Positions 31,152 to 40,567 of a stretch of DNA of 64,000 bases are shown here, piece by piece. The notes beneath the pieces were generated by a model. That model was not told where the DNA came from. It made no database searches and saw only the letters and a list, made by a program, of their open reading frames with translations. The number at the start of each line of letters is the position of its first letter. Positions within the stretch are counted from its first letter, which is position 1. The DNA is taken from positions 1,364,001 through 1,428,000 of the forward strand of contig NZ_CP006942.1 of assembly GCF_000521605.1 (NCBI RefSeq), read 5' to 3'. A program made the translations under genes and the position numbers. The DNA comes from Mannheimia sp. USDA-ARS-USMARC-1261 (GTDB lineage: Bacteria; Pseudomonadota; Gammaproteobacteria; Enterobacterales; Pasteurellaceae).

Positions 31152-32009
31152 ATGTACAAAAACCTCTCTCTACTTTCGCCAAATACCTCCTTTGACTTTG
31201 AGCTAGCTGTCGGATTGACTCAATGCGAAAAAGGAAATTATCTTGATTCTGTTGTCAATAAACAAGGTATGAATGGCTATATGTTACAGCTGACAACTTT
31301 TGGTAGTGGCACAATTTTTGACGGAAAAAATACGTTTAATGTGAATCGAGGACAACTTCTTCTCTTTTCTCCAAATGTGATTCAAAATTACCAACGTCAT
31401 TCTGAGTCCCTATATTGGCACTATAAATGGATCTATTTTTTACCAAATCCTAAATGGAATAAATGGTTAAATTGGTCTAATAAAGAAGCAGGAATTGGTC
31501 GGATAAAAATTAATGACAATCGATATTTCCAAGAAATCAGCCAGCTTTTTTCTAAAATTGAGCTTGAATTAAAATCTAGCCACTTTTTTAAAGAAGATGT
31601 GGCGACAACTCTATTGGAGTATTTATTGATGAAGTGTATTTCCGCAGAGAAAATTGAGGTTATACCAGCCATTGATCAACGTATTCTTAATGTTTGTAAT
31701 TTAATCTTGTCTAATTTATCCCGGAATGACAGTGTAGAATACATAGCAGAAAAGGTATTTTTATCTCCCTCTCGACTATCTCACTTATTTAAAGCATCTC
31801 TAGGCATTAATTTAGTTCAATGGAGAGAACTACAGCGTATTGCAGAATCAAAAAAACTATTATATTTCTCTAACGTTTCAATATTAAATATCGCTAAATC
31901 ATTGGGCTATGAAGACCCGTTGTATTTTTCTAAAATCTTCAAAAAGCACACCGGATTATCCCCTTCTGAATTTAGAACTATCGAAAGACGTAAAGATAAC
32001 GAAGTGTGA
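31152..32009 (+). CDS. AraC-family transcriptional regulator
   Basis: 285 residues. The N-terminal cupin-like ligand domain (about 1-150) includes LQLTTFGSGTIFDG and RGQLLLFSP. The C-terminal double helix-turn-helix (about 185-280) has SVEYIAEKVFLSPSRLSHLFKA and ILNIAKSLGYEDPLYFSKIFKKHTGLSP. It is immediately upstream of, and co-directional with, a sugar ABC transporter and kinase operon, so it most likely activates that operon when the sugar binds. No clear Shine-Dalgarno precedes the ATG. AT-rich codon use resembles the operon it precedes. The inducer is unknown. Confidence 0.9.
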   Translation: MYKNLSLLSPNTSFDFELAVGLTQCEKGNYLDSVVNKQGMNGYMLQLTTFGSGTIFDGKNTFNVNRGQLLLFSPNVIQNYQRHSESLYWHYKWIYFLPNPKWNKWLNWSNKEAGIGRIKINDNRYFQEISQLFSKIELELKSSHFFKEDVATTLLEYLLMKCISAEKIEVIPAIDQRILNVCNLILSNLSRNDSVEYIAEKVFLSPSRLSHLFKASLGINLVQWRELQRIAESKKLLYFSNVSILNIAKSLGYEDPLYFSKIFKKHTGLSPSEFRTIERRKDNEV

Positions 32010-32030
32010 TCTAGATCTCACTTCGCTTTT
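32000..32030 (+). terminator. Terminator-like hairpin at the end of the AraC gene
   Basis: CGAAGTG / CACTTCG outer stem with inner GATC-TA-GATC and a following CTTTT. It overlaps the AraC stop codon and the CRP-like site, so one palindrome may do two jobs. Confidence 0.6.
32002..32023. promoter_or_regulatory. CRP-binding site candidate
   Basis: 22-base palindrome centred on TGTGATCTAGATCTCA, matching 19 of 22 positions of the E. coli CRP consensus (TGTGA, six bases, TCACA with flanking A/T). It lies about 175 bases upstream of the binding-protein gene, a place suited to catabolite activation of the sugar operon. Confidence 0.72.
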
Positions 32031-32105
32031 CGTAGCAGAATTTTCCATATCAATAACAAAAATTTACCTGTTCTCTCCTCCACTTAAAGCATAAGATTAA
32101 GACAG

Positions 32106-32131
32106 CTTTAATAGTGCTGTTTCTATTAAAG
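32106..32131. promoter_or_regulatory. Inverted repeat, candidate regulator site
   Basis: CTTTAATAG, 8 bases, CTATTAAAG: perfect 9-base arms, 67 bases before the binding-protein ATG. It may be an operator for the neighbouring AraC-type regulator or overlap the promoter. Confidence 0.5.
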
Positions 32132-32139
32132 TAAAGATA

Positions 32140-32158
32140 ACCTGCTATTGGAGCAGGT
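32140..32158 (+). other. Leader hairpin before the sugar operon
   Basis: ACCTGCT-ATTGG-AGCAGGT, a 7-bp perfect stem 39 bases upstream of the binding-protein ATG. There is no T run, so it is not a terminator; it may protect the 5' end. Confidence 0.5.
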
Positions 32159-32197
32159 GTACAACGTAATGACTTCTTAATTTATGAGGGAAGAACA

Positions 32198-33172
32198 ATG
32201 AAAAAACCAACATTAAAACACGCATTATTTTCCGGAATCTTAGCATTAAGCTGCTATAGTTCAGCTCTGGCGAATGATATGGTCAATATTTCTAAAATTG
32301 ATGGTATGCCTTGGTTTAACCGTATGGCTGAAGGCGTCGTTCAAGCAGGTAAAGACAATAACATTAACGCCTACCAAGTTGGTCCGTCAAATACGGATGC
32401 TCCACAGCAAGTGAAATTAATTGAAGACTTAATTGCCAAAAAAGTGAGTGCAATCTCTATCGTTCCAAATGATGCAAATGCCTTAGAACCGGTGCTGAAA
32501 AAAGCAAAACAAAATGGCATTGTCGTTTTAACAAATGAATCTGTAGGTCAACCAAGTGCAGATTGGGATATTGAAATTATTGATAATGCTCAGTTTGCGG
32601 CAGATTATGTTGAAGAAGTTGCCAAAGCAATGGGCGGTAAAGGCGGATATGTGATTTATGTAGGTGGTTTAACCGTACCTCAACATAATTTATGGGCAGA
32701 TTTATTTGTGAAATACCAAAAAGAACATTATCCAGATATGTTTGAAGTTACCAGTAGAATGCCGGTTGCAGAAAATATCAATGATGCTCGCCGTACAACG
32801 ATTGACTTAGTAAAAGCTCACTCTGATTTAAAAGCAGTAGTATCTTTCGGTTCTCAAGGTCCTATTGGTGCAGGTTTAGCTGTCAAAGAAAAACGCTTGA
32901 AAAATAAATTGAATGTTTTCGGTATGATGATCCCATCTCAAGCTGCTAATTTAATTAAAAGTGGTGATATTACAATGGGAATCACTTATGACCCAGCTAA
33001 TGCAGGTTATGCCCTTGCCGCTATTGCAGCAAAAGTGTTAAAAGGTGAAAAAATTGAAGACGGCTTAGAAATCCCTAATGTTGGTAAAGCTAAAGTGGAT
33101 GCAGAGAAAAAATTACTCCAATTCCACAATGTACTTAAAGTGACTAAAGATAATATCGACAACTTATATTAA
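32198..33172 (+). CDS. Periplasmic sugar-binding protein of an ABC transporter (LsrB/RhaS-like)
   Basis: 324 residues. Signal peptide MKKPTLKHALFSGILALSCYSSALA, cleaved before ND. Type I periplasmic-binding fold of the ribose/rhamnose/AI-2 group: MPWFNRMAEGVVQAGKDNNI, then LIEDLIAKKVSAISIVPND and AVVSFGSQGPIGAG. Compared with AI-2 receptor LsrB, the AI-2-contacting Asp-116 and Asp-Gln 166-167 appear replaced (LTNES; TVPQHNLW), so AI-2 is an unlikely ligand; a pentose or deoxysugar is more likely. Shine-Dalgarno GAGGGAAG precedes the ATG. First gene of the transporter operon. Confidence 0.88.
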   Translation: MKKPTLKHALFSGILALSCYSSALANDMVNISKIDGMPWFNRMAEGVVQAGKDNNINAYQVGPSNTDAPQQVKLIEDLIAKKVSAISIVPNDANALEPVLKKAKQNGIVVLTNESVGQPSADWDIEIIDNAQFAADYVEEVAKAMGGKGGYVIYVGGLTVPQHNLWADLFVKYQKEHYPDMFEVTSRMPVAENINDARRTTIDLVKAHSDLKAVVSFGSQGPIGAGLAVKEKRLKNKLNVFGMMIPSQAANLIKSGDITMGITYDPANAGYALAAIAAKVLKGEKIEDGLEIPNVGKAKVDAEKKLLQFHNVLKVTKDNIDNLY

Positions 33173-33224
33173 TCTACGATAAATATGGGTTCTTTATGAA
33201 CCCATATTTCTCTGAGGAGGCATT

Positions 33225-34712
33225 ATGGCATTTATTTCCATGCAGAATATCAGTAAGACATTCCACGGTATAAAGGCATTAAATCAAGTAAACCTCTCTT
33301 TAGACTATGGAGAAGCTCTCTGCCTTGCCGGTCAAAACGGTTGTGGAAAATCCACGCTAATCAAAATCCTATCAGGTGTTTATCAACCTGATAAAGGAGC
33401 TAAAATCCAAATCGGTGCGACCACATATTCTAAATTAACTCCCCAAGAATCTATTGAAAAAGGGATTCAAGTTATCTATCAAGATCTGGCTCTATTTCCT
33501 AATTTAACAGTCGCAGAAAATATAGCGATAAATTTACACCGCAAGTTTAGCTGGGTAAGTCAGGAAGAGATTCAAAAGGTCGCTTTAAATGCGGTTCAGA
33601 GTATTAATGCTGATTTAGATCTTAATGCAGTTTTAGAAGATTTACCCATTGCACAGCAACAATTAGTTGCTATATGTCGTGCATTGGCACAAAACGCTCG
33701 CCTATTGATTATGGATGAGCCAACAGCATCTCTTACGGCGAAAGAAGTACAAGATCTGCTAAAAGTTGTACTAAAGTTAAAAAGTAAAGGCATTAGTATT
33801 ATTTTTGTCAGTCATAAATTACAAGAAGTAATGAGTGTCTCTGATACCGTTTTAGTACTTAAAAATGGCAATATAGTTGGTCAATATCCTATCAGTGAAA
33901 TGGATGAGAAACGTTTAGGATTCTTAATGACCGGATTAGAAATCGAATACAAGCGGTTAGATTTGCCCGATTTTTCGCAAAGAAAAACAGTACTAGAAGT
34001 ACGTAACTTAACATTACCTCGTCAATATGAAAATATAAATTTTGCATTACGAGAAGGGGAAATTATTGCTTTAACCGGTTTACTGGGTTCAGGACGTACG
34101 GAATTATGCCTTAGCTTATTCGGGATTACTCAGCCTAAATCCGGCGAAATATTATTAAATGGAAAAAAAGTCATTTTTAAAACAAATCGTGATGCTATCA
34201 AAAATGGGATTGCTTATGTGTCAGAAGATAGAATGACAACCGGATTAATTATGGCAGAGTCCATTCATCACAATATCATATCTACTATTTTTCATAAGAT
34301 CTGTGGTGGACTTAATATTATTAAATCTTCAACGGCGTATCAACATAGTCAAGAGCTCATTGACTCACTAAAAATTAAAGTAGCTGATTCAGATTTGCCA
34401 GTAAATACCCTTTCAGGGGGTAATGCTCAACGGGTTTCCATTGCTAAATGGTTAGCGATTGATCCTAAAATTATTATTTTAGATGCCCCAACTATTGGCG
34501 TAGATATTGCTAATAAAGAAGGTATATTCAATATCATTAAATCATTAGCACAGAAAGGTATTGCAGTTATTTTTGTTACCGATGAAGTAGAAGAGGCATA
34601 TTACAACAGTCATAGGGTTCTTGTAATGAAAAAAGGCAAGATATTGGACAAAATTCTACCTATTAATGCAACAGAAAAATTGATTGCGGAGGTCATCTAT
34701 GAAAATCACTAA
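33225..34712 (+). CDS. Sugar ABC transporter ATP-binding protein (tandem ABC domains)
   Basis: 495 residues with two fused nucleotide-binding domains, as in RbsA, MglA and LsrA. Domain 1 has Walker A GQNGCGKST near 36-44, a degenerate signature region LPIAQQQLVAICRALAQNA near 140 and Walker B LLIMDEPTAS near 162. Domain 2 has a degenerate P-loop region LTGLLGSGRTEL near 285-296, signature TLSGGNAQRVSIAKWLA near 395 and IIILDAPTIGVD near 418. GAGG precedes the ATG. Its 3' end overlaps the permease start by 14 bases. The inter-domain linker carries an uptake sequence. Confidence 0.94.
   Translation: MAFISMQNISKTFHGIKALNQVNLSLDYGEALCLAGQNGCGKSTLIKILSGVYQPDKGAKIQIGATTYSKLTPQESIEKGIQVIYQDLALFPNLTVAENIAINLHRKFSWVSQEEIQKVALNAVQSINADLDLNAVLEDLPIAQQQLVAICRALAQNARLLIMDEPTASLTAKEVQDLLKVVLKLKSKGISIIFVSHKLQEVMSVSDTVLVLKNGNIVGQYPISEMDEKRLGFLMTGLEIEYKRLDLPDFSQRKTVLEVRNLTLPRQYENINFALREGEIIALTGLLGSGRTELCLSLFGITQPKSGEILLNGKKVIFKTNRDAIKNGIAYVSEDRMTTGLIMAESIHHNIISTIFHKICGGLNIIKSSTAYQHSQELIDSLKIKVADSDLPVNTLSGGNAQRVSIAKWLAIDPKIIILDAPTIGVDIANKEGIFNIIKSLAQKGIAVIFVTDEVEEAYYNSHRVLVMKKGKILDKILPINATEKLIAEVIYENH
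33949..33957 (+). repeat. DNA uptake signal sequence inside the ABC ATPase gene
   Basis: ACAAGCGGT followed by TAGATTTGCCCGATTTTTCG and CAAAG: a full extended uptake context within coding sequence, at codons about 242-255, exactly in the linker between the two ABC domains. Confidence 0.85.
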
Positions 34713-35658
34713 TAATTATATCCTTTCTGCAACTATATTCGCTTTAGTCGTTTTGCTTACACTTTTTACCAATGACTTTGCGACCATAGAAAACATCTAT
34801 GATGTGGTCAATAATTACTCAATGCTAATGATTTTAGCTTGTGGGTTATTTGTTGTCCTTATTTCAGGAGGTATTGATATTTCTTTTCCTGCCATAACTA
34901 TTATTTCGCAATATGTTATGGTAACAATAATAGGAAAATATGATATTGGCTTTTTAGGTGTGTTCGCTATCTCATCTTTCATTGGGATTCTGTTAGGTTT
35001 TGTTAATGCCCTGTTTGTTAATAAGCTGAGTGTACCTTCCATTATTATTACAATTTCAACATTGAATATCTTTTATGGGGGGCTACTCTATTTCACGAAA
35101 GGAGTATGGTTATACGACTATCCTGAATGGTTTATACAAGAACGCCTATTTTTCAAACAAACCTCTCAAGATGGATTTGAGTTCGGTATCTCATTCCAAG
35201 CAATTATGGCTATTTCATCTGTATTATTGACGTGGTTAATTACCCGTAAATTAACTATCGGTAGAAAAATTTATGCACTTGGTGGGAATCAAGATGCTAC
35301 ATCTCGAATTGGGTTTAATATTCTATCTCTGCATTTATTTGCTTATGGTTATATGGGGTTTATGGCTGGAATAGCAGGAGTTGTACAATCTTATACCGTA
35401 CAATCCGTTGCTCCTGATTCGCTACTCGGTTATGAGTTAACCGTACTTGCAGCTGTCGTTTTAGGTGGAGCTAGCTTATCTGGAGGTAAAGGAACATTAT
35501 TAGGAACAGTTATGGGAGTAATGCTGCTAGCAATCATTCAAAATGGCTTAAATTTAATGAATGTTTCTTCTTATTGGCAAACAATCATTACCGGTATCAT
35601 TATTATATTAAGTATTAGTGCTACTGCATTAGGGCAATTTAAAAAACAAGGAGTATAA
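34699..35658 (+). CDS. Sugar ABC transporter permease 1
   Basis: 319 residues starting MKITNNYILS at the ATG at 34699; this start has GGAGG 6 bases upstream and overlaps the ATPase stop by 14 bases, better than the TTG 15 bases earlier. RbsC/LsrC-type permease with 8-10 hydrophobic segments. Family landmarks are GGIDISFPAITIISQYV (about 57-73) and the cytoplasmic coupling loop TIGRKIYALGGNQDATSRIGF near 192-212, then AAVVLGGASLSGGKGT near 250. It pairs with permease 2 as a probable heterodimer. Confidence 0.92.
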   Translation: MKITNNYILSATIFALVVLLTLFTNDFATIENIYDVVNNYSMLMILACGLFVVLISGGIDISFPAITIISQYVMVTIIGKYDIGFLGVFAISSFIGILLGFVNALFVNKLSVPSIIITISTLNIFYGGLLYFTKGVWLYDYPEWFIQERLFFKQTSQDGFEFGISFQAIMAISSVLLTWLITRKLTIGRKIYALGGNQDATSRIGFNILSLHLFAYGYMGFMAGIAGVVQSYTVQSVAPDSLLGYELTVLAAVVLGGASLSGGKGTLLGTVMGVMLLAIIQNGLNLMNVSSYWQTIITGIIIILSISATALGQFKKQGV

Positions 35659-35660
35659 CG

Positions 35661-36611
35661 ATGAAAAGAAAAATTGATCATACTATTTTTTATCTATTGG
35701 CTCTTTTTGCTATTGCTGTGATTGCTTTTAGTCTTTTAATTCCGGATATCTTTTGGTCTATCAGTAATTTTCAGTCAATGGCATCTCAAATTCCCGTCTT
35801 AGGAATTTTAACGCTTGCAATGGCATTACCGATGCTAACAGGTGGAATAAATCTTTCTATTATTGCCAGTATGAATGCTTGCTCACTCATTATCGCTTAT
35901 TTTATTACTCAGTACACCGGTATTTCTTGGCTATTTATGTCGATTATATTGAGCCTCTTCTGTGCATTAGTGATCGGTTTGCTCAATGGAACACTTATCG
36001 CCATTATTCGAGTTTCTCCGATTCTCGCTACATTAGGGACAATGACATTAATCAATGGTATTAATATATTAGTAACAAATGGATCTACAATTGCAAACTT
36101 CTCTGACAGTATTTTAAATATTAGTGCATCTACATTTTTATGGATTCCTACTCCTATTTTAATATTCTTATCGCTTGCAGGGGGGATATGGTTCTTCCTA
36201 GAAAAAACATCTATTGGCAAGGCAATCTATTTCATTGGTAATAATGAAAAAGCGACCTATTACTCAGGTATTAATACGAAAAAAGTACTCATTTGGGTCT
36301 ATATAATCTCATCTGTACTTTGTGTATTCGCTGCTATTTTAATGATGTCAAAACTTAATTCAGCCAAAGCCTCTTACGGCGATTCTTACTTACTAATCTC
36401 TATTCTTGCTACTGTACTAGGCGGAATAAATCCAGATGGTGGTAAAGGGAAATTAATAGGTATTATGTTAGCTCTTGTCTTACTTCAAGTCATTGAAAGT
36501 GGCTTAAATATGCTTGGTATTAGTAGTTACATCACAATGATCTTGTGGGGCAGTTTATTGTTACTATTTATCTTCTTACAAAAAAATCATATTTTCCTAT
36601 TAAAACGTTAA
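35661..36611 (+). CDS. Sugar ABC transporter permease 2
   Basis: 316 residues, same family as permease 1: GGINLSIIASMNACSLII near 61, TSIGKAIYFIGNNEKATYYSG near 183-203 and ATVLGGINPDGGKGK near 250. Only 2 bases separate it from permease 1, and GGAG precedes the ATG by 8 bases. Two permeases plus one fused ATPase is the layout of the lsr and rha-type transporters. Strongly AT-rich, like its neighbours. Confidence 0.92.
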   Translation: MKRKIDHTIFYLLALFAIAVIAFSLLIPDIFWSISNFQSMASQIPVLGILTLAMALPMLTGGINLSIIASMNACSLIIAYFITQYTGISWLFMSIILSLFCALVIGLLNGTLIAIIRVSPILATLGTMTLINGINILVTNGSTIANFSDSILNISASTFLWIPTPILIFLSLAGGIWFFLEKTSIGKAIYFIGNNEKATYYSGINTKKVLIWVYIISSVLCVFAAILMMSKLNSAKASYGDSYLLISILATVLGGINPDGGKGKLIGIMLALVLLQVIESGLNMLGISSYITMILWGSLLLLFIFLQKNHIFLLKR

Positions 36612-36623
36612 CAGGAGTAAATT

Positions 36624-38219
36624 ATGCAAAATGAGAAACAACTAATTGAACAAGGCAATATAGTCATTGGTATTGAATTAGGCTCAACCCGTATAAAAGC
36701 GGTATTAATTAGTACCGAAGGAACAATACTCGCTACCGGAGGAGCCGACTGGGAAAACAGACTGATTGATGGCATTTGGACATATCATCAAGATGAAGTT
36801 TGGGAGAAACTCCAAGCAGCATATAGTGATTTAGCTAAAACCGTAAAAGAAAAATACCATGCAATTATTCGTTCAGCGAAAGGGTTAGGCATTAGTGCAA
36901 TGATGCATGGTTATTTGCCTTTTGATAAACAAGGAAAACAGCTCGTTCCATTTAGAACTTGGCGAAATAATATTACCTTAGAAGCATCTGAAAAATTAAC
37001 AGAGCTTTTCCAATATCCGATTTCCCAGCGTTGGAGTATTGCTCATTTGTATCAAGCCCTATTAAACAATGAACCACATTTAAAGGAGGTTGATCATATC
37101 ACGACATTATCTGGTTATGTTCACTGGCAACTCACTGGAGAAAAAGTCTTGGGAATTGGCGATGCTTCAGGAATGTTTCCGATTGATACAGATTCTCACT
37201 CCTACAACAAAAAGATGCTTGCCCAATTTGCACAATACATTTCTCAATTTAATATGCCTTGGCAGCTGAATACAATCTTACCAAAAGTGTTGGTTGCCGG
37301 TGAATCAGCAGGCAGATTAACTGAACAAGGTGCAAAATTACTTGATCCAAGTGGTAATTTACAAGCAGGAATCCCGCTATGTCCTCCTGAGGGAGATGCG
37401 GGTACAGGTATGATTGCAACTAATTGTATTAAAGAAAAAACGGGAAATATTTCAGCAGGAACGTCTGCATTTGCAATGATTGTGCTAGAAAAAATGCTGT
37501 CAAAAGTTTATCCAGAATTAGATATCGTGACTACACCAGCAGGAAAATTAGTCGCAATGGCACACGCCAATAACTGTACATCTGATATTAATGCTTGGGT
37601 TAATTTATTCGGGGAGTGTTTGGATACATTTGGAATCCATGTGTGTACAGAAGAATTATATGAAATACTGTTCTTACATTCGCTACAAGGTGATGCCGAT
37701 TGCGGTGGGCTACTTTCCTATGGTTTTCACTCTGGGGAACATAATGTCGGTTTATCTGAAGGTTGCCCTATGTTCCTACACCCAACGAAAGCCAATTTTA
37801 ACTTAGCTAATTTTATGAGAGCCCACCTTTACACTGCTTTTGGGGCGATGAAATTGGGGATGGATATTCTCATTAACCAAGAAAAAGTAGAAATTTCCCG
37901 TATATTAGGACACGGTGGTATTTTTAAAACAGAGGGAGTTGCACAGAAAATTCTAGCTTCAGCACTCAATATACCACTTGCAACAGCCAGCACAGCATCA
38001 AACGGAGGAGCTTGGGGGATTGCATTGTTGGCTAATTTCTTAACATACTCTGACAAACAAACATTAGAGCAATATTTGGATAAGTGTATATTCAATACCA
38101 CTCAACTCAATCTCATTCAACCTGATAAAACGATGAGCGAAGGATATGAACAGTTTATGCAACGATATAAAAGAGGGATTTCTGTAGTGGAGAAAGCACT
38201 CTATCTAAATATACCTTAG
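36624..38219 (+). CDS. FGGY-family carbohydrate kinase
   Basis: 531-residue sugar kinase expected to phosphorylate the imported sugar in the cytoplasm. Landmarks: N-terminal phosphate-binding motif GIELGSTRIKAVLI (about 16-29), ISAMMHGYLPFD near 91 and FRTWRNNI near 112 in the substrate region, adenosine-binding ISAGTSAFAMI near 276, and the C-terminal LGHGGIFKTEGVAQKILASA followed by ASNGGAWGIALL near 455. AGGAG precedes the ATG. The subfamily (ribulo-, xylulo-, rhamnulo- or AI-2-type) cannot be fixed by eye. It is the last gene; no isomerase or aldolase is nearby. Confidence 0.9.
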   Translation: MQNEKQLIEQGNIVIGIELGSTRIKAVLISTEGTILATGGADWENRLIDGIWTYHQDEVWEKLQAAYSDLAKTVKEKYHAIIRSAKGLGISAMMHGYLPFDKQGKQLVPFRTWRNNITLEASEKLTELFQYPISQRWSIAHLYQALLNNEPHLKEVDHITTLSGYVHWQLTGEKVLGIGDASGMFPIDTDSHSYNKKMLAQFAQYISQFNMPWQLNTILPKVLVAGESAGRLTEQGAKLLDPSGNLQAGIPLCPPEGDAGTGMIATNCIKEKTGNISAGTSAFAMIVLEKMLSKVYPELDIVTTPAGKLVAMAHANNCTSDINAWVNLFGECLDTFGIHVCTEELYEILFLHSLQGDADCGGLLSYGFHSGEHNVGLSEGCPMFLHPTKANFNLANFMRAHLYTAFGAMKLGMDILINQEKVEISRILGHGGIFKTEGVAQKILASALNIPLATASTASNGGAWGIALLANFLTYSDKQTLEQYLDKCIFNTTQLNLIQPDKTMSEGYEQFMQRYKRGISVVEKALYLNIP

Positions 38220-38235
38220 TATTTACCCCAAATAT

Positions 38236-38270
38236 AAAAACCGTTTGAATAAACTATCCAAACGGTTTTT
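38236..38270. terminator. Bidirectional terminator, sugar operon / parC
   Basis: Perfect 12-bp stem AAAAACCGTTTG / CAAACGGTTTTT with an 11-base loop and T runs on both strands, between convergent kinase and parC genes. Confidence 0.88.
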
Positions 38271-38308
38271 TATTTATACAAGCTATTGCAAATTTTCTCA
38301 AAAAAACA

Positions 38309-38317
38309 ACCGCTTGT
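38309..38317 (-). repeat. DNA uptake signal sequence
   Basis: ACCGCTTGT with TTGCAAATTTT upstream on the forward strand, just past the parC stop. Confidence 0.8.
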
Positions 38318-38320
38318 TGC

Positions 38321-40567
38321 TTAATCGACAATTTCCACAGTGGAATTTGTGCTTAAACCTCGCACTAATTGCGATCCTTTTCTTGCACGTTCACCGCGGT
38401 AGTTGTCGATATCGCTTGGTTTGAGCGTAATTTTGCGTTTGCCGGAAACAAACACGAGAGATTGTGTAGGCTTGATAACCAATAAACGAGCCAAATATTC
38501 ATCACCTGATTTTGCCGCTGCTGCGGAAATATTGATGATTTTATTGCCTTTACCTTTCGATAATTCAGGTAATTCGCTAACAGGGAACACCAACATTCTG
38601 CCGACATTACTCATCGCTACAAGCGATAAATTTTCATCGTTTTCCAATAATTGCGGCGGCAGCACTTTTGCATTTTCTGTTAAAGAAATGACCGCTTTCC
38701 CTGCTTTGTTGCGAGAAACCAGATCTTCAAAAGTACAGATAAAGCCGTAGCCCGAATCCGATGCCATTAGCACTTTGGTGTCTGAATTTGCCATTAGCAC
38801 TTGCTGAATGGTTGCCCCTTCAGGTAAGGTGATTTTGCCTGTCAGTGGTTCACCCTGTGAACGTGCCGATGGTAATGAAGTCGGATCTAACGCATAAGCT
38901 CGCCCTGTGCTGTCTAAAAAAACCACCGGTTGATTACTTCTGCCTCGAGCGTGGGCGAGATAACCATCTCCTGCACGGTAGCTTAAGCCTTCCACCTCAA
39001 TATCGTGTCCTTTGGCACAACGTACCCAGCCTTTTTCCGAGAGGATCACCGTTACATCTTCAGTTGGGGTTAAATCACTTTCGGCAATTGCTTTCGATTC
39101 CGCACGCTCCACTAATGGCGAACGACGAGGGCTGGCGAAGGTTTTCGCATCTGCCTGAATCTCTTTTTTGATTAAGCTGTTTAAACGGCGTTCCGAGCCT
39201 AAAATCAGTTGCAGTTCATCACGCTCTTTTTCAAGCTCTGATTTTTCCGCTTGTAATTGGTGTTCTTCCAATTTTGCCAAATGGCGTAAGCGGAGGTTTA
39301 AAATCGCTTCGGCTTGAATATCGGTTAAATTAAAGCGTGCCATTAATTCCGCTTTCGGTTCATCTTCGTTACGGATAATCTCAATCACCTCATCAATATT
39401 CAAAAAAGCGATCATCAAACCGTCTAAAATATGCAAACGGCTTAAAATTTTATCCAAACGATAATTTAAGCGACGAGTTACCGTTGTGCGGCGGAATGTG
39501 AGCCATTCGGTTAAAATCGTCAGTAAATTTTTTACTGCCGGTTTGCCGTCTAAGCCAATCATATTCATATTGACTCGATAACTTTTTTCCAAATCGGTCG
39601 TCGCAAAAAGATGACCCATTAAGGAATCAAAATCAATGCGATTTGAGCGTGGCACAATTACCAAACGGATTGGGTTTTCGTGATCAGATTCATCACGAAT
39701 ATCGTCCACCATCGGCAGTTTTTTATTTCGCATTTGGGTGGCAATTTGCTCAATAATCTTTGATGGCGAGGCTTGGTGTGGTAAAGCGGAAATCACAATT
39801 TCGCCCTCTTCTTTTTTCCACACTGCACGCATTTTAATCGAACCACGACCTTGCTCATACATTTTCGCAATTTCTGCTTTTGGCGTGATAATTTCCGCCT
39901 CAGTCGGGTAATCCGGTCCTTGTACCACAGTCAGAATGTCGTCTAATGTGGCTTTCGGATTATCCAATAGCATTACGCTTGCATCAGCAAGTTCGTTGAT
40001 ATTATGTGGCGGAATATCCGTTGCCATTCCCACCGCAATCCCCATCGTGCCGTTGAGCAAAATATGTGGCAAACGGGCGGGTAAATACTTTGGCTCTTCA
40101 ATCGAACCATCAAAATTCGGCTGATAATCAACTGTTCCTTGCCCCAATTCGCCTAACAATACTTCAGCAATTTTTGAGAGCTTAGATTCGGTATAACGCA
40201 TTGCGGCGAAGGATTTTGGGTCATCCGGTGCCCCCCAGTTCCCTTGTCCATCAACCAATGGATAGCGGTAAGAGAACGGCTGAGCCATTAACACCATTGC
40301 TTCATAACAAGCACTGTCGCCGTGTGGGTGGAATTTACCTAACACATCCCCCACCGTTCTAGCGGATTTTTTATATTTTGCCGAGGCGTTTAAGCCTAAT
40401 TCCGACATTGCATAGATGATACGGCGTTGCACAGGTTTTAAGCCATCACCGATAAACGGCAATGCCCTGTCCATAATTACATACATTGAATAATTGAGGT
40501 AAGCATCTTCGGTAAAACGCTTAATCGGCATCTGTTCAATGCCTTCGTAATTGATTTCAGTCGTCAT
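38321..40567 (-). CDS. parC: DNA topoisomerase IV subunit A
   Basis: Catalytic A subunit of topoisomerase IV, decatenating daughter chromosomes. 748 residues, standard. The breakage-reunion domain has the active tyrosine Y125 in FAAMRYTES. The quinolone-resistance region reads [11 protein letters not shown] with S85 and E89 (E. coli S80 and E84), i.e. the susceptible-type residues. The C-terminal half is the beta-pinwheel domain. parE is not adjacent. Start at the ATG at 40567, with a paired, degenerate uptake sequence upstream. Confidence 0.98.

Follow-up and report, generated by a model that had tools for sequence, protein, structure and literature searches.

A predicted CRP site at the end of an araC-like gene and an araBAD-type promoter layout before a sugar transporter operon in Mannheimia

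The palindrome in which an araC-like gene of Mannheimia sp. USDA-ARS-USMARC-1261 ends is very probably a cAMP-CRP site. It would belong to a promoter that is activated by CRP together with an AraC-family regulator, has the layout of Escherichia coli araBAD, and drives an operon for a sugar ABC transporter and a kinase. The predicted site is well supported by its sequence, its conservation and the layout of the elements around it. The initial annotation had assigned it to the downstream sugar operon, and this agrees with its conservation, with its fixed spacing to a pair of AraC half-sites and to the -10 element, and with the araBAD-like order of these elements. In the mechanism that we infer for the binding of CRP and AraC, activation and the start of transcription at this promoter, cAMP-CRP would sit at about -92 in the absence of preferred sugars, while the AraC-like protein, together with its sugar, would fill the pair of direct half-sites that adjoin the CRP site. 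At the second half-site the regulator would touch a weak -35 element and bring RNA polymerase to the -10 element (32092-32097). The half-sites, which were absent from the initial annotation, account for the exact position of the CRP site. The stop codon of the regulator gene lies inside the CRP core because the gene stands upstream in the same direction, with its end packed against the promoter, and the RNA can form a hairpin because the CRP site is palindromic.

The case is largely ordinary, given that the promoter is very probably of the known araBAD type, that its layout is shared with related bacteria and that the hairpin is probably a by-product. It nevertheless indicates that the CRP-I1-I2 layout of E. 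coli araBAD has been kept in the Pasteurellaceae, in the species of the window (the whole stretch of 64,000 nucleotides that was analysed) with a CRP-to--10 distance that is the same to the base pair. This layout would here precede an operon of another kind, and its regulator gene points the other way. The sugar operon gains a predicted start site, two putative AraC half-sites and a putative CRP site. Coordinates are collected in Table 1.

Table 1. Features of the regulator gene, the promoter region and the operon, in window coordinates
Feature	Position	Strand	Remarks
AraC-family regulator gene	31152-32009	+	285 aa; stop TGA 32007-32009; NF007860 match
Hairpin from CRP palindrome in araC transcript	32000-32025	+	7 bp, T:T mismatch, 3 bp, loop CTAG; then CTTTTCG
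CRP site (predicted)	32002-32023	.	19/22 consensus positions; centre between 32012 and 32013; core in 22/22 orthologous regions
AraC half-site, I1-like (predicted)	32033-32049	+	TAGCAGAATTTTCCATA; TAGC and TCCAT columns invariant in 22/22
Second AraC half-site, I2-like (predicted)	32054-32069	+	TAACAAAAATTTACCT; 21 bp from first
Weak -35 CTGTTC	32068-32073	+	overlaps end of second half-site; 18 bp before -10; by analogy with E. coli araBAD
-10 TAAGAT	32092-32097	+	79.5 bp from CRP centre
Sugar ABC transporter substrate-binding protein	32198-33172	+	first gene of operon
Sugar ABC transporter ATP-binding protein	33225-34712	+	
ABC transporter permease	34684-35658	+	
Second ABC transporter permease	35661-36611	+	
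FGGY-family sugar kinase	36624-38219	+	xylulokinase/ribulokinase-like

The palindrome and the promoter elements

Bases 32000-32025 (CGAAGTGTGATCTAGATCTCACTTCG) form a near-perfect 26-bp palindrome in which 12 of the 13 symmetric positions pair, the remaining one being a T:T mismatch. The 22-mer at 32002-32023 differs from the consensus AAATGTGATCTAGATCACATTT at three positions and has the TCTAGA centre exactly. Direct reading of the sequence confirms the earlier description of a near-consensus CRP palindrome (19 of 22 positions) that overlaps the AraC stop codon, the TGA at 32007-32009 being the TGA of TGTGA in the CRP core. Matches to the CRP consensus with at most three mismatches are rare. 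The 64-kb window contains this one only, none of 100 shuffled windows had one, and the whole genome (2.39 Mb) has 8 such places against none for a reversed control pattern. Note that the looser core TGTGA-N6-TCNCA is not rare, since it was found once in the window with 0.45 expected and at least once in 34 of 100 shuffles.

The genome encodes a CRP protein that is 75% identical to its E. coli counterpart (E 8.9e-102). Five of the seven other strong CRP-like places were examined. The mannitol PTS gene has two of them upstream, mannose PTS IIAB and aspartase have one each. The fifth, in locus L135 (1501-1522; G000 C1 33847-33868), stands shortly 3' of a co-directional lactaldehyde reductase gene and upstream of an aldehyde dehydrogenase gene, so that the window is not alone in having a CRP-like site close to the end of a gene. 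Genes for mannitol and mannose PTS, aspartase and aldehyde dehydrogenase are of the kind typically under CRP control in enterobacteria.

Excerpts of a study of Pasteurellaceae CRP sites (PMC3739930) assign CRP-N sites to sugar utilisation genes in Haemophilus influenzae. The site of the window resembles the CRP-N sites described there in that a left half with the canonical TGTGA precedes a sugar operon, and is unlike the CRP-S type, for which the same excerpts give three A. suis sites, all with TGCGA in place of TGTGA. The right half reads TCTCA, not TCACA, in the window and in 18 further orthologous regions (T in 19 of 22).

The E. coli araBAD promoter shares with the window the order CRP, I1, I2 and promoter, as well as half-sites 21 bp apart. 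Measured from the CRP centre, the first half-site, the second half-site and the -10 TAAGAT of the window lie at 20.5, 41.5 and 79.5 bp, and the same measurement on E. coli araBAD (NC_000913) gives 21.5 bp for I1, 42.5 bp for I2 and 79.5 bp for the -10 TACTGT. Consequently, both half-sites are closer to CRP by 1 bp in the window than in E. coli, while the distance from CRP to the -10 is identical. By analogy, transcription is predicted to start at about 32104, which would place the CRP centre at about -92. This compares with -93.5 in E. coli araBAD, where CRP helps break the AraC loop according to PMC7408454; two proximal AraC sites and a CRP site are also described in PMC4760080. The initial annotation had expected a start between 32060 and 32170, and the predicted (not mapped) start falls within that interval.

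The two systems also differ. The araC gene is upstream and co-directional in the window but divergent in E. coli, and the operon of the window encodes a transporter and a kinase in a genome without a match to the araA family, unlike E. coli araBAD. Furthermore, no distal, O2-like looping half-site was identified above chance in the window, in which half-site matches with at most two mismatches number 12 (8.2 expected; at least 12 in 12 of 100 shuffles). Across the genome the half-site pair has one perfect match, which means no more than that the pair occurs a single time, the search pattern having been derived from the window. A second pair at three mismatches was rejected, as the reversed control also gave one. 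A phage collection held no near match to 31900-32210, and the literature, searched at listing level, gave no description of this promoter.

Conservation among orthologous regions

We compared 35 orthologous loci (L001-L008, L031-L041 and L111-L126), 13 of which were dropped as identical over 250 bases, so that 22 distinct regions were kept, with regulators 56-100% identical to that of the window. The whole-genome loci (24 of the 35) are those of the 24 among 140 family genomes whose regulator is at least 55% identical. The orthologues of the regulator include those of Nicoletella, Histophilus, Rodentibacter and, with 80% identity, Mannheimia haemolytica. Over the compared region, locus L031 of M. 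haemolytica does not differ from L004, which comes from G001, a genome of the genus to which the window also belongs. Eleven loci of a distant regulator group (L009-L014 and L127-L131; 41-49% identical) stand outside the counts. Four of these (L012, L014, L127 and L129) have a half-site 20.5 bp from their best CRP-like site, by a scoring under which some sites may be overlooked.

The CRP core in the form TGTGA-N6-TC-N-C-R, a pattern written after the orthologous sequences had been viewed, is kept at the araC end in all 22 distinct regions, and in all 22 its centre lies 20.5 bp before the TAGC of a TAGC-N7-TCCAT block. The -10 element, sought by three hexamers that were also picked after viewing the sequences, lies 79.5 bp from the CRP centre in 13 orthologues, 78.5 bp in 7 and 80.5 bp in 2. 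The araC stop codon, measured by its first base, lies at a varying distance from the CRP centre, namely 5.5 in 16 regions, 10.5 in 3, 11.5 in 1 and 13.5 in 2, and the six orthologues with a shifted stop have TAA or TAG 0-3 bases before TGTGA. A fixed distance to the half-site combined with a varying distance to the stop argues that the CRP site is in register with the promoter and not with the end of the gene.

The information content of alignment columns follows the same elements. It is 2.00 bits per column in the left CRP core and 1.81 in the right core, falls to 0.61 in the spacer that leads from CRP to the first half-site, and is 2.00 again in each of the two boxes of that half-site. The boxes of the second half-site have 1.38 and 1.48 bits, values that are understated since counting was free of gaps and L125 and L126 carry one extra base before this half-site. 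These two regions retain the core but match only 13 and 14 of the 22 CRP consensus positions.

Two inverted repeats were noticed in the leader. The first lies at 32105-32132 (CTTTAATAG...CTATTAAAG), right 3' of the predicted start, and a stem of at least 7 pairs occurs at this place in 18 of 22 orthologues (300 mononucleotide shuffles: mean 5.3, maximum 12). Its arms vary by clade (CTTTAAT/ATTAAAG and CCTTAATT/AATTAAGG), with an unrelated stem in L007, and it is perhaps a hairpin that stabilises the 5' end of the mRNA. The second hairpin (32140-32158; ACCTGCT...AGCAGGT) is a minus-strand entry in the terminator scan, with 1.0 expected by chance; L004 and L005 have a stem of different sequence near the equivalent place.

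The hairpin and alternative readings of the palindrome

Besides the CRP site, the initial annotation had proposed that the palindrome ends the regulator transcript, and hence that it has a dual role in DNA and RNA. Folding confirmed a hairpin with a CTTTT tail for these bases (-10.3 kcal/mol over 26 nt), but the stability is only marginally unusual, the 61-nt stretch around the hairpin having -14.6 (z -1.76) and 10 of 200 shuffles being as good. Termination and the dual role were not borne out. By a d'Aubenton-Carafa-type formula, the hairpin of the window scores -21.4, whereas the thr attenuator of E. coli reaches +62.2 and a terminator candidate behind the kinase gene +14.5. The best scores of the 22 orthologous stretches range from -72.6 to -7.4, none above zero, and for many of these stretches, among them L118 and L122, the highest score belongs to a hairpin other than the palindrome. 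A simple terminator scan did not have the hairpin at 32000-32025 among its entries, perhaps because the T:T mismatch splits the stem. The element is like a Rho-independent terminator in having a stem-loop followed by T; it departs from one in its interrupted stem, its four T after a C, its negative score and a hairpin that is not generally conserved.

Indeed, the fold of the palindrome reaches -10.3 kcal/mol in the window and L002, -9.6 in L003, -7.2 in L032 and -7.1 in L118 and L122, and is weaker than -5 in the remaining 16 of 22. A hairpin of -7 kcal/mol or better is thus found in 6 of 22 regions, and one followed by a run of at least four T only in L001, L002, L118 and L122 (4 of 22). The T runs are 6 in L118 and 5 in L122, and the CTTTT hairpin of the window is identical in L002.

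We consider it unlikely that the palindrome was selected twice, as a CRP site in DNA and as an intrinsic terminator of the araC transcript in RNA, although the folds and T tails of these few regions speak for it, as do patterns of change in the stem. Stem cells are paired in 80.0% of cases against a shuffle mean of 76.4%, a share reached by 2 of 500 shuffles, and the covariation score was reached by 5 of 500; related sequences can, however, exceed such shuffles without structure. Both sides have changed in five rows at pair 9-32 of the outer stem, which is formed in 18 of the 21 distinct rows, in four rows at pair 8-33 and in two at pair 12-29. These two-sided changes allow, to some degree, that the palindrome is under selection for more than CRP binding. 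Against this, pairs 12-29 and 8-33 are formed in only 6 and 10 of 21 rows, and the outer left arm is about as variable as the spacer (0.58 against 0.61 bits). Four of the ten stem pairs never vary, and all four lie in the CRP core or its A/T flank. Sliding the stem by 1-3 columns lowers pairing to 32-52%, and pairing above that of slid versions is expected from a CRP site that is itself palindromic. The hairpin is probably the natural symmetry of the CRP site with occasional longer arms, a by-product that in a few species may terminate weakly at most. A CRP palindrome that stands at the end of a gene can look like a terminator. There is a small chance that in a few lineages (the species of the window and its near relative L002; L118 and L122) the palindrome has been lengthened and now ends the araC transcript as a functional terminator. 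CRP binding and termination would then compete or alternate, and so set the read-through from the regulator gene into its own operon.

It is very improbable that FNR or another relative of CRP, and not CRP itself, uses the site. The window does contain GAT-N4-ATC and matches 7 of 10 positions of the FNR consensus, but among the orthologues 10 of 22 match 5 or 6 of these positions and the other 12 match 7, whereas TGTGA-N6-TC-N-C-R is present in 22 of 22. This candidate was rejected, given that the orthologues keep the CRP core and not the FNR positions. That the palindrome is a terminator only, as its location at the 3' end of a gene might suggest, has next to no probability, since the core and its spacing persist where the hairpin is lost (L007, L035 and L039) and since the rarity of 19-of-22 matches (one in the window, 8 in the genome), together with the conservation of core and spacing in orthologues, led us to reject a chance likeness to CRP.

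The regulator and the sugar operon

The regulator passes the NCBIfam arabinose AraC model NF007860 with 355.5 bits (cut-off 208) and is 39% identical to E. coli AraC. The genes of the operon (32198-38219) are co-directional with it. Family models did not name the substrate, those for the transporter and kinase falling below their cut-offs (ATP-binding protein: best 25 of 191). Although the regulator passes the arabinose model, the L-arabinose isomerase (araA) family, present in 32 of 140 Pasteurellaceae genomes, has no match in the whole genome, which speaks against catabolism of L-arabinose by the isomerase route.

The Pasteurellaceae genome G024 has a gene for a related regulator, behind which stand araA and a gene for a kinase similar to that of the window, an arrangement from which the window kinase may be taken to act on a ketopentose. 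An araD-like gene (L148 1498-3074; G000 C1 at about 124 kb) scores 383 bits, just under the araD cut-off of 389.1, and adjoins an open reading frame that by eye resembles L-xylulose-5-phosphate 3-epimerase. This araD-like gene and the putative epimerase are a possible outlet for the product of the kinase. At about 38210-38340, 3' of the kinase gene, the sequence CCGTTTG...CAAACGG followed by TTTTTT forms an intrinsic terminator candidate (score +14.5), and this hairpin plausibly terminates the operon.
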